Of a DNA stretch of 64,000 nt, positions 22,812 through 25,905 are shown in pieces (positions within the stretch are counted from its first letter, which is position 1; each line of letters begins with the position of its first letter). The notes under the pieces were generated by a model that worked only from the letters and a program-made list of their open reading frames with translations, had not been told where the DNA came from and made no database searches. Location of the stretch: contig JAATFP010000102.1 of the NCBI GenBank assembly GCA_015655125.1, positions 1 through 64,000 of the forward strand, read 5' to 3'. The translations under genes and the position numbers were made by a program. Source of the DNA: Chitinophagales bacterium (lineage in GTDB: Bacteria; Bacteroidota; Bacteroidia; Chitinophagales; Chitinophagaceae).

Positions 22812-23801
22812 TTATGCTAATCCTTTTTCAACAAGATATTCTGCAATCTGTACCGCATTTGTCGCAGCTCCTTTTCTAAGGTTATCACTTACGATCCAGC
22901 AATTGAGCGTATTTGGCTGGGTTTCATCGCGGCGGATGCGGCCCACGAAAGTTTCGTCTTTGTCGTGAGCGTTCAATGGCATCGGGTATACAAAGTTGTC
23001 GATGTCGTCTTCCAGCACAATACCTTCGGAGGCACTGAGCAAAGATTTTACATCATCCATCTCAAAATCTTTTTCAAATTCAATGTTTACGCTTTCGCTA
23101 TGACCGCCAATAGTCGGAATACGGACGCAGGTGGCCGTTACGCGGATAGAATCATCTTCCATGATCTTTTTTGTTTCGTTTACCATTTTCATTTCTTCTT
23201 TGGTGTAGCCGTTGGGCGTAAATACATCTATCTGCGGGATCGCATTCATATCGATCTGGTATTTGTATGCCATGTCGCCTTTTATTCCCTTTCGTTCGTT
23301 CATCATCTGATCCACGGCTTTAACGCCGGTACCGGTAACGCTCTGGTAAGTACTCACCACCACACGTTTGATGGTATATCTTTCATGAAGCGGCTTAAGC
23401 ACGAGTACCATCTGGATGGTACTGCAGTTAGGATTAGCGATGATCTTATCTGCCGCTGTTAACACATGGGCATTAACTTCCGGGACAACAAGTTTTTTTT
23501 CCGGATCCATTCTCCACGCGCTGGAATTATCGATTACCGTAATTCCTGCTGCTGCAAATTTGGGCGCCCATTGAAGTGATGTACCGCCGCCGGCGGAGAA
23601 AATTGCAATGGCGGGTTTGGCATCGATGGCTTCCTGCATACTTACAATCGTATATTTCGAACCTTTAAAATCCACCTGCTTCCCAACCGATTTTTCGGAA
23701 GCCACCGGTACCAGTTCTGTTACCGGGAAGTTTCTTTGTTCCAATACCTCCAGCATTTTTGTACCTACCAGGCCCGTAGCGCCTACGACTGCAATTTTCA
23801 T
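22812..23801 (-). CDS. asd: aspartate-semialdehyde dehydrogenase
   Basis: A 329-residue enzyme that converts aspartyl phosphate with NADPH to aspartate semialdehyde, the branch point for Thr, Met, Lys, Ile and diaminopimelate. The N-terminus MKIAVVGATGLVGTKML is the NADP-binding Rossmann motif; IANPNCSTIQM carries the active-site Cys, and IPTIGGHSESVNIE carries the catalytic His. The start at 23801 is fixed by the Rossmann motif. Upstream are a terminator, an aspartate-family leader peptide and a promoter, so transcription is likely controlled by attenuation. Confidence 0.95.
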   Translation of the reverse strand: MKIAVVGATGLVGTKMLEVLEQRNFPVTELVPVASEKSVGKQVDFKGSKYTIVSMQEAIDAKPAIAIFSAGGGTSLQWAPKFAAAGITVIDNSSAWRMDPEKKLVVPEVNAHVLTAADKIIANPNCSTIQMVLVLKPLHERYTIKRVVVSTYQSVTGTGVKAVDQMMNERKGIKGDMAYKYQIDMNAIPQIDVFTPNGYTKEEMKMVNETKKIMEDDSIRVTATCVRIPTIGGHSESVNIEFEKDFEMDDVKSLLSASEGIVLEDDIDNFVYPMPLNAHDKDETFVGRIRRDETQPNTLNCWIVSDNLRKGAATNAVQIAEYLVEKGLA

Positions 23802-23820: not shown

Positions 23821-23851
23821 AAAAAATAAGCCTCCCGGTTTGCGGAAGGCT
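23821..23851 (-). terminator. transcription attenuator upstream of asd
   Basis: On the minus strand AGCCTTCCG pairs with CGGGAGGCT (one wobble) around a 5-base loop, then TATTTTTT follows. It ends 20 bases before the asd start. The base segment GAAGG just after the leader peptide stop (TAGCAGAAGG) can pair with CCTTC of the first arm and so form an antiterminator. Confidence 0.85.
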
Positions 23852-23891
23852 CTTAAAATATGTGGTTACAATATAAGAATGATACCTTCTG

Positions 23892-23936
23892 CTAAGTGGT
23901 ATGCGTGGTCTTAATTGTATGTTTCATCATTGTCAT
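23892..23936 (-). CDS. asd leader peptide, Thr-rich (MTMMKHTIKTTHTT)
   Basis: A 14-codon frame, ATG at 23936 and TAG at 23892, encodes MTMMKHTIKTTHTT: six Thr, three Met, two Lys, one Ile and two His. All but His are amino acids of the aspartate pathway that asd serves. It follows a promoter-like TAATTTTG by 20 bases and precedes the attenuator. In the E. coli thr operon a Thr/Ile-rich leader works the same way: a ribosome stalled at scarce aminoacyl-tRNA lets the antiterminator form. Translation here is inferred, not shown. Confidence 0.8.
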   Translation of the reverse strand: MTMMKHTIKTTHTT

Positions 23937-23956
23937 ATCGGAACCGAAATTAATTA

Positions 23957-23964
23957 CAAAATTA
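23957..23964 (-). promoter_or_regulatory. likely asd promoter -7 element
   Basis: TAATTTTG on the minus strand matches TAnnTTTG and lies 20 bases before the leader peptide ATG. A -33 TTG at the expected distance is not clear. Confidence 0.55.
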
Positions 23965-24183
23965 TTAGGCTCCAAATTTTTTACCCGGAAGAGAACAGAT
24001 AATATCCGGATGGTATTGGGTTGCGCCCGAACGGGGCCTTTTATATATTATTGCTTACGAAAATGCCGGTTATTTTTGATGTTGTTTTCCGCGCAAGAAT
24101 ATCAGAATAAAACTAATCATTTCCGGTGCTTTTCCCCAGTTTACCTCACCGGCACTATCTAGTTTTACAGAAATAATCCGGTT

Positions 24184-25905
24184 ATGAAAACTATCTTTAT
24201 TTTTCTCCTGGCAACTGGTTTGATTCATGCTGATTGTATCGCGCAACAATCGAGGCCCTATAGTGTTGTAATAAACGAGATATTCGCTGACCCGTCTCCG
24301 CAGGTTTCTCTTCCGGAAAAAGAATGGATCGAATTATATAATACGTCCACGGAAGATATTCTTCTTCAAAACTGGCGGATCGGTTATGCCGCCGGTCTTT
24401 CCGGTCCAATGCCATCTTATATTCTTAAACCCGACAGCTTTGTAATCGTTTGTACGGCCAGTTCCGTTCCTTCCTTAAATAGTTTCGGAAATATTATATC
24501 CGTTACCTCTTTTCCGTCATTGGGTAATGAAGAAGAAACGCTCTGGCTCCGCGCGCCGGATGGCAACGTTGTACATGCCGTTCATTACACAAACAACTGG
24601 TACCACAATGAACTGAAGAAAGCCGGTGGCTGGACACTGGAAATGATCGATGTCCGCAATCCCTGTGGTAGTATGGAAAACTGGACGGCCAGTATCGACC
24701 CTTCAGGTGGAACTCCTGGCAGAATAAATTCTGTTGCGGTATTGAACCCGGACAGTAAAGCCCCAAAACTCATCAGCGCCTTTGCTTTGACACCCACATC
24801 TGTCACCCTCTTTTTCAACGAACCTGTCGATAGCCTGAATGCAATTAATCCTGACTTCTATACACTAAGTGAGGGCATCGGAAAACCCATTGCAGCAAAA
24901 CCTGTGGGGCCGATATATGATCAGGTTATTCTCACATTGGCAACGCCATTGATCGAAAATAAAATATATCTCGCCACAGCCACTTCGCTCACCGATTGTA
25001 GCGGAAACATCATTAGTGCCGGTTCAAATTCGGCAAGGGTAGGAACAATTTCCCGCGCGAATCGATTTGATGCGATTGTAAATGAAATACTATTCAATCC
25101 CACACCATCTTCCGTGGATTATGTTGAGTTGTATAATCGCGGTAACAAGATCCTTGATCTCCACGATCTTTATCTTGCCAACAGGAATTCAATAAACGAT
25201 ATCAATAGTCTTACCCGGATAAGCAACAACCATCGTTCATTTTTCCCGGGAGATTTTATCGTAGCTACATCCGATATTGGTGCTGTAAAAAATGCTTATG
25301 TGTCGGAAAATCCGGAAGCATTTATAGAGGTTGCCATCCCATCTTACAACAACGATAAAGGTAATGTGATCCTTTTAAATGTACAAGGCATCGTTTTAGA
25401 TGAAATAGCGTACAGGGATGACTGGCATTTTGCGCTCATCAGTAATCCGGAAGGTGTTGCATTGGAGCGGATCAGCTATACCGATACATCCATATTACCT
25501 GAAAAGCAAAGACTAAACTGGCACTCGGCCGCCAGCAGTGTTCATTACGGCACACCGGGATATAAGAACTCCCAATCTCAAAACGACACCGTCGTCAATG
25601 GAACTATTATAGTCGACCCTAAGGTCGTTAGTCCGGACAACGATGGACATGATGATATGGCAACCATCAATTATACATTTCCCGAACCTGGCTATGTTGC
25701 CAATATCACGATTTTTGATGCATCCGGAAGACCCATTCGCTACCTGCTAAAAAATGGATTGTGCGGAACAGAAGGATTTTATCGCTGGGATGGATTGAAT
25801 GAAAAAAAACAACGCCCGGGCCCCGGGATCTATATCATTTTCACGGAGGTATTCAACCTGAAAGGTAAAGTGAAGCGGTTTAAAAATGTGATCGTGGTTG
25901 CATAA
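24184..25905 (+). CDS. Lamin-Tail domain protein, probably secreted
   Basis: A 573-residue exported protein, signal peptide ending at DCIAQ. It has two Lamin-Tail (LTD) domains with the phrases VVINEIFADPSP...EWIELYN (residues about 25-175) and AIVNEILFNPTPSSVDYVELYN (about 295-400), with an SbsA-like Ig domain between them. The C-terminal domain (VVSPDNDGHDDMATINY, RWDGLNEKKQRPGPGIYI) resembles FlgD-like/CHU_C C-terminal Ig folds in proteins exported by T9SS. LTD proteins are found on cell surfaces and next to extracellular nucleases. No nuclease domain is present here. Role unknown, perhaps adhesion. Confidence 0.85.
   Translation: MKTIFIFLLATGLIHADCIAQQSRPYSVVINEIFADPSPQVSLPEKEWIELYNTSTEDILLQNWRIGYAAGLSGPMPSYILKPDSFVIVCTASSVPSLNSFGNIISVTSFPSLGNEEETLWLRAPDGNVVHAVHYTNNWYHNELKKAGGWTLEMIDVRNPCGSMENWTASIDPSGGTPGRINSVAVLNPDSKAPKLISAFALTPTSVTLFFNEPVDSLNAINPDFYTLSEGIGKPIAAKPVGPIYDQVILTLATPLIENKIYLATATSLTDCSGNIISAGSNSARVGTISRANRFDAIVNEILFNPTPSSVDYVELYNRGNKILDLHDLYLANRNSINDINSLTRISNNHRSFFPGDFIVATSDIGAVKNAYVSENPEAFIEVAIPSYNNDKGNVILLNVQGIVLDEIAYRDDWHFALISNPEGVALERISYTDTSILPEKQRLNWHSAASSVHYGTPGYKNSQSQNDTVVNGTIIVDPKVVSPDNDGHDDMATINYTFPEPGYVANITIFDASGRPIRYLLKNGLCGTEGFYRWDGLNEKKQRPGPGIYIIFTEVFNLKGKVKRFKNVIVVA

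Follow-up and report, generated by a model that had tools for sequence, protein, structure and literature searches.

A predicted leader-peptide transcription attenuator upstream of asd in the Chitinophagaceae

The thr operon attenuator of enterobacteria, represented in Rfam as Thr_leader (RF00506), possesses a leader rich in Thr (and Ile), and the his operon attenuator is represented there as His_leader (RF00514). In Sinorhizobium meliloti, a small ORF named SEP5 contains six Thr and three Lys codons and lies within the 5′ UTR of what its authors call an aspartate dehydrogenase gene; they describe it as conserved only in Sinorhizobium and suggest that it encodes a leader peptide (PMC10117765). 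Within the Bacteroidota, ‘strong clues’ for leader-peptide attenuation upstream of amino-acid operons are mentioned for Flavobacterium psychrophilum, in an article whose main text contains neither ‘asd’ nor ‘threonine’ (PMC9723704). The literature searched yielded no report of asd attenuation in Bacteroidota and none of Lys-coded leaders on dapA, lysA or aspartokinase; a 2010 analysis (Lopatovskaya et al.) may cover the phylum. A first-pass annotation of the DNA described below had known of no description at this gene in this group, which agrees with the search as far as asd is concerned, but hints of attenuation in the phylum were already in print (PMC9723704). The kind of attenuation is classic; it is the setting, asd in the Chitinophagaceae, for which no report was found.

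The window analysed here is a stretch of 64,000 nucleotides from a member of this family, in which asd, encoding an aspartate-semialdehyde dehydrogenase of 329 aa, occupies positions 22812–23801 of the minus strand, starting with an ATG at 23801. The protein scores above the cut-offs of both TIGR01296 (420 bits, cut-off 324) and NF011456 (445, cut-off 223). Ahead of it on the same strand lies a short ORF, MTMMKHTIKTTHTT, with the stop codon TAG (23892–23936, minus strand), identified by its sequence and by homologous leaders in relatives. It reads M T M M K H T I K T T H T T stop, that is six Thr, three Met (initiator included), two Lys, two His and one Ile, the very counts on which the first-pass annotation had proposed a leader peptide before asd. 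As judged from sequence comparison and folding, this element is a ribosome-mediated (leader-peptide) transcription attenuator of asd with a probability of roughly 0.86.

The leader is preceded on the minus strand by TTTG (23973–23976), a −33-type element located 20 nt ahead of the −7-type box TAATTTCG (23945–23952), and the combination TTTG-N20-TAATTTCG is taken here to be a Bacteroidota −33/−7 promoter. Among 90 family leaders, 76 have a TAnnTT[T/C]G box ending 4–16 nt before the ATG, compared with 1.6% of shuffles, and the spacing from TTG/TTTG to the −7 box peaks at 19–20 nt. The promoter-like sequence named at first, TAATTTTG, does exist at 23964–23957, but it is TAATTTCG that corresponds to the box conserved in these 76 leaders. 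Because the box ends 8 nt before the leader ATG, the leader would be almost without a 5′ UTR, with the mRNA predicted to start a few bases before the ATG.

Between leader and asd stands, as had been proposed, an intrinsic terminator (23821–23852, minus strand), a hairpin GAGCCTTCCG-CAAAC-CGGGAGGCTT with a T-run, recognised from its predicted fold and from covariation in a 44-element alignment. The stem covers 23852–23828 and the T-run 23826–23821, leaving 19 bases to the asd ATG. The neighbouring gene upstream of asd (24184–25905) is on the plus strand and divergent from asd, so that the terminator does not represent the end of that gene. The first arm of the terminator includes CCTTC at 23849–23845, and GAAGG is found at 23889–23885, two bases past the leader stop, within a predicted antiterminator segment, GCAGAAGG (23885–23892, minus strand), able to pair with CCTTCCGC of the first arm. 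The pairing of GAAGG with CCTTC pointed out in the first-pass annotation extends to six contiguous pairs, and seven of eight positions of GCAGAAGG and CCTTCCGC match by eye; since about 25% of letter shuffles of such segments also reach at least six contiguous pairs, the pairing is not significant in the window alone and the case rests on relatives. In the MFE structure, segment 1 (23925–23945, minus strand), made up of bases before the ATG and the first codons, pairs with segment 2 (23864–23884, minus strand), and the two segments coevolve in relatives. This helix, termed helix 1:2, is built in the window from the bases before the ATG and codons 1–4, and in the family consensus register from the KHTKR codons. 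The structure prediction suggested together with the original proposal shows that the leader–terminator region folds better than dinucleotide shuffles (z −3.46, one of 200 shuffles being as good).

Regions upstream of asd were gathered from 80 named loci, from the family and from the class. Those of the family were taken by asd similarity, not randomly, and comprise 110 loci from 282 genomes with asd, 103 of them unique. A CCTTC-type terminator is present in 93 of these 103 unique regions, another kind of terminator in 3 and none in 7. ATG leaders in range were found in 122 elements (92 from the family), of which 118 (90 from the family) were retained with an antiterminator motif. Regions lacking an ATG ORF in range were excluded before counting, as were L053, L113, L159 and L215, which have no antiterminator motif; two GTG-start leaders seen by eye (L153, L167) stand outside the counts, and L116, a family member, is grouped with the class loci. 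In family leaders, the start of the GRAGG motif ranges from 15 nt ahead of the first base of the stop codon to 6 nt past it. Within the genus, the element occurs in five of six genomes (L001, L084, L086, L088, G193), and the remaining member (L082, genome G281) has no such element before asd. Culturable strains with the element include Niastella yeongjuensis DSM 17621 (L026) and Limnovirga soli KCS-6 (L005). In other families of the class, leader and antiterminator are found together at 7 of 24 unique loci. Many family elements, for example L002 and L094, also show a conserved AAnATA(A) stretch located between segment 2 of helix 1:2 and the terminator.

A covariance model was constructed from 44 elements, the window and 42 other family elements included. 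It finds the window at an E-value of 4.6e-12, a match that arises by construction because the window is among the model sequences. At an E-value of 0.01, the model has a match in 98 of 117 evenly drawn family genomes, some of these not at asd, and none in the other 19. In the family genomes with a listed asd position, which are the more similar ones, 57 of 62 have a match no more than 330 nt upstream of asd and five have none at asd; recovery is partly by construction, given that 43 of the 90 family leaders are also in the model alignment. A further 24 strong matches do not correspond to a listed asd position; of these, 13 were read as non-asd and 4 lie at asd (L234, L246, L247, L253). The leader codons and the hairpin are thus conserved in the comparison of asd upstream regions that the first-pass annotation had suggested, and the lack of conservation it had named as counting against its proposal is not what is seen.

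In most family elements, helix 1:2 can form between the codons AAACATACAAACG and a CGTTTGTGTATG-like segment following GGAAGG, and GGAAGG itself can pair with CCTTCC of the terminator. No clear column-wise covariation emerges for helix 1:2, the MAFFT alignment aligning segment 2 poorly, and for this reason an alignment-free swap test was adopted in which matched segments of 118 elements are compared with segments swapped between genomes. Helix 1:2 scores −12.31 kcal/mol for matched and −9.34 kcal/mol for swapped segments, and is stronger when matched in 99 of 118 elements (p 4e-17). The antiterminator gives −13.48 versus −12.17 kcal/mol, the matched pairing being stronger in 81 of 118 (p 1.6e-7). 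Controls show no difference, whether reversed (helix 1:2, 60 of 118, p 0.46; antiterminator, p 0.15), shuffled (p 0.96) or made from two unrelated segment pairs (p 0.19 and 0.88). Relatedness was handled through the swap test and a non-redundant subset, the counts being made without a tree; the 48 non-redundant elements agree for both helix 1:2 (p 1.2e-7) and the antiterminator (p 0.0009). In the terminator alignment of 44 elements, 93.9% of cells are paired, with 23 double-change cells versus 7.8 in shuffles; the number of pairs showing such a change, 4 against 2.6 in shuffles, is not exceptional, being reached in 63 of 500 shuffles. The thr-type layout first suggested for asd is accordingly conserved in its leader, antiterminator and terminator, with helices that co-vary.

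Family leaders share the consensus MxxxKHTKR[T/I]KK followed by a short tail. Relative to shuffled nucleotides, the 90 family leaders are enriched in Lys (1.69×, z 14.7), Met (3.05×, z 10.6), His (2.13×, z 9.3) and Thr (1.44×, z 6.1), the z values treating related leaders as independent, and Ile is not significantly enriched (1.13×, z 1.4). Lys occurs in 90 of 90, Thr in 82, Ile in 72 and Met beyond the start in 59. Codons for the end products of the pathway are thus over-represented in the case of Lys, Thr and Met. At the conserved columns for K, T and T/I it is the third codon base that varies most freely, as selection on the amino acid would predict, although A/G third-base changes at Lys codons would preserve pairing too. 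The His column varies mainly at its first base (CAT 59, TAT 9, AAT 5 of 89), as pairing predicts, and the conserved His is for this reason probably structural, reflecting an RNA-pairing constraint visible as conservation at the nucleotide level.

No other of the 90 leaders compared has as many Thr as the window leader, and few are as poor in Lys: just 3 of 90, itself included, have so few Lys codons (two). It also lacks the KK motif that most relatives keep. The Thr/Met/Lys/Ile list of the first-pass annotation therefore fits the leader of the window, but family-wide it is Lys that comes first, followed by Thr/Ile. All seven leaders from other families of the class contain KK and two Thr, and the more ancient signal appears to be Lys, with Thr/Ile added in the Chitinophagaceae. 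We lean towards Thr being the main signal in the window species, with Lys together with Thr/Ile as the family norm.

For the working of the element, we infer the start site, the translation of the leader, the stalling and the direction of the response. RNA polymerase would start a few bases ahead of the leader ATG. Shortage of Thr-tRNA, or in most relatives of Lys- or Thr-tRNA and possibly of those for Met or Ile, would cause the ribosome to stall within codons 5–13, so that GCAGAAGG could capture the first arm of the terminator while the second arm is still to be transcribed, upon which transcription would continue into asd. When charged tRNAs are plentiful, a ribosome at the stop codon would cover GCAGAAGG, the terminator would form and transcription would end before asd. 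Helix 1:2, uniting the leader with the segment after GAAGG, may keep the antiterminator from forming as long as no ribosome translates the leader.

These steps were modelled with ribosomes placed along a transcript ending in the terminator loop, assuming a 30-nt footprint. In the window, the modelled antiterminator probability is at least 0.98 with the A site at any of codons 3–13, then drops to 0.13 for codon 14 and to 0.00 for the stop. Each of the 90 family leaders reaches at least 0.5 with the ribosome at the conserved Thr and Lys columns, and none of them (0/90) does so at the stop; the values for the stop codon, in the window as in the family, derive largely from the assumed footprint. 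Equilibrium folding in this form supports the choice between a stalled and a terminating ribosome. When no ribosome is placed, the antiterminator reaches 0.91 in the window, at least 0.91 in four of six elements examined (window included) and 0.5 or more in 65 of 90 family elements. Folding at equilibrium thus backs helix 1:2 as a protector, giving an OFF state without translation, in a minority of elements only. Kinetics could give helix 1:2 such a role, since it is made first.

The element accordingly has a short ORF with start and stop between a consensus-based promoter and a structural gene, and an intrinsic terminator between that ORF and the gene. To these are added a predicted antiterminator excluding the terminator, indicated by coevolution over 118 elements, and, in the simple fold model, masking of this antiterminator by a ribosome at the stop and not by one at the control codons.

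The same architecture is encountered at other genes. Model matches not at asd were read in 33 cases, the 13 mentioned above and the next 20 by E-value, and 27 of these lie upstream of hisG (16), dapA (6), lysA (2) or the aspartokinase group (3), the latter meaning an aspartokinase or an aminotransferase followed by one. The remaining six have no amino-acid gene in the stretch read, L285 being cut at a contig end. Downstream genes were identified by checking representatives against NCBIfam, by the neighbouring aspartokinase for L279, and from N-termini for the rest. Leaders of hisG contain HHH or HHHH in 15 of 15 listed, L288 (hisG, GTG start) being left out. The genome of the window carries a hisG leader of its own, MQNFIHIHHHHTLPHGKLC, reading HIHHHH (contig C82, L278), followed by GGGCTTACTGAAAAGTGAGCCC and a T-run in the same layout as the asd element. 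Leaders of dapA in relatives are rich in Lys (L257, L258, L260, L263, L265, L267), and Lys-rich leaders forming predicted attenuators are likewise found at lysA (L272, L296) and aspartokinase (L271, L279, L282). For L258 and L272 the position model took the wrong ORF, which lowers its values for the dapA and the lysA/aspartokinase groups. No such leader is present at dapA in the window's own genome. Of the indirect evidence, this match between leader codons and downstream genes speaks most strongly for the predicted attenuation mechanism.

A Thr/Ile-rich leader ORF also precedes thrA, encoding a bifunctional aspartokinase/homoserine dehydrogenase, at 27 of 30 loci (L221/L299, from the window's own genome on contig C89, and L300–L328). 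One such leader ends TSTIITTTTIITTR. Most of them have a CAACCCG-UUAA-GGGUUG-like hairpin, with CAUAUUAnCC after it, whose loop holds the stop codon. When the 110 nt before thrA are scanned for terminators under relaxed settings, 6 of 30 loci are positive, mostly through this hairpin itself, and seven thrA loci scanned gave no convincing Rfam match. The thrA leaders possibly use a different attenuation mechanism.

Three other explanations of the asd element have to be weighed against leader-peptide attenuation. According to one, the terminator is controlled by a metabolite-binding RNA or a protein-binding attenuator, such as a lysine riboswitch, and the small ORF has no part in the control. 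Riboswitches that bind lysine can serve lysine control in other bacteria, and AAACATACAAA is strongly conserved at the nucleotide level; against this, the codon signature changes with the gene, unlike an aptamer, the third codon bases are the freest, and a scan of the window at gathering score gave no match to any of 4227 Rfam families, among them Thr_leader, His_leader, the lysine riboswitch and T-box. This explanation is hence very unlikely. At eight loci of relatives, three Rfam matches reach between roughly a half and two thirds of the gathering score, one of them a weak Phe_leader match overlying the asd leader region of L012. In all, 18 loci scanned at a permissive threshold gave four weak matches, these included, which were below cut-off and taken as chance.

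Another possibility is that the attenuator responds to the general state of translation and not to a specific amino acid, for which it can be said that a modelled stall at any of codons 3–13 frees the antiterminator. The enrichment of K, T and M at asd, the His runs at hisG and the Thr/Ile runs at thrA speak against it, leaving it with little credibility. The least likely of the three, a constitutive terminator or one belonging to another gene beside a small ORF arisen by chance, can point to the six matches without an amino-acid gene and to the Flavobacterium loci looked at, where by eye the terminator upstream of asd comes directly after the preceding gene, but is contradicted in the window by the divergent neighbour and the promoter just before the leader, and in relatives by leader codons and helices which are conserved and co-vary. 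The Flavobacterium terminators, owing to this position, were rejected as attenuators.

With leader-peptide attenuation retained as the preferred reading at asd, a wider one may be considered, namely that the Chitinophagaceae run a leader-peptide regulon in which one RNA architecture is recoded for each gene. In our estimation the evidence leaves this evenly poised. Were it true, hisG would be coded with His, the three genes dapA, lysA and aspartokinase with Lys, and asd with Lys plus Thr/Ile/Met. Running short of any one of the aspartate-family end products would then open the branch-point gene asd, and species would retune the codon mix, as the window species would have done in shifting from Lys towards Thr. 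In any case, a classic form of attenuation is predicted where the routes to Lys, Thr, Met and Ile diverge, in bacteria whose control of amino-acid synthesis has received little attention, and the family-wide leaders can now be tested. A near-absent 5′ UTR together with a leader stop only a few codons away from the antiterminator also provides a simple signature for the annotation of such switches in Bacteroidota.

Compared with the described systems, the element resembles the thr operon attenuator in its short Thr-rich leader, its terminator, its alternative antiterminator and the aspartate-family gene downstream. Unlike the thr operon attenuator, which targets thrABC, it targets asd, includes Lys and Met codons and has a nearly leaderless ORF, and the window has no Rfam match to Thr_leader. 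The hisG leaders of relatives and of the window's own genome share a His run, a terminator and the same layout with the his operon attenuator, differing in that they belong to another phylum and that L278 does not match the Rfam His_leader model. SEP5 of Sinorhizobium meliloti is similar to the window leader in its Thr and Lys codons and unlike it in coming from an Alphaproteobacterium (PMC10117765). The clues from Flavobacterium psychrophilum, given as a general statement, concern the same phylum and likewise operons of amino-acid biosynthesis (PMC9723704).
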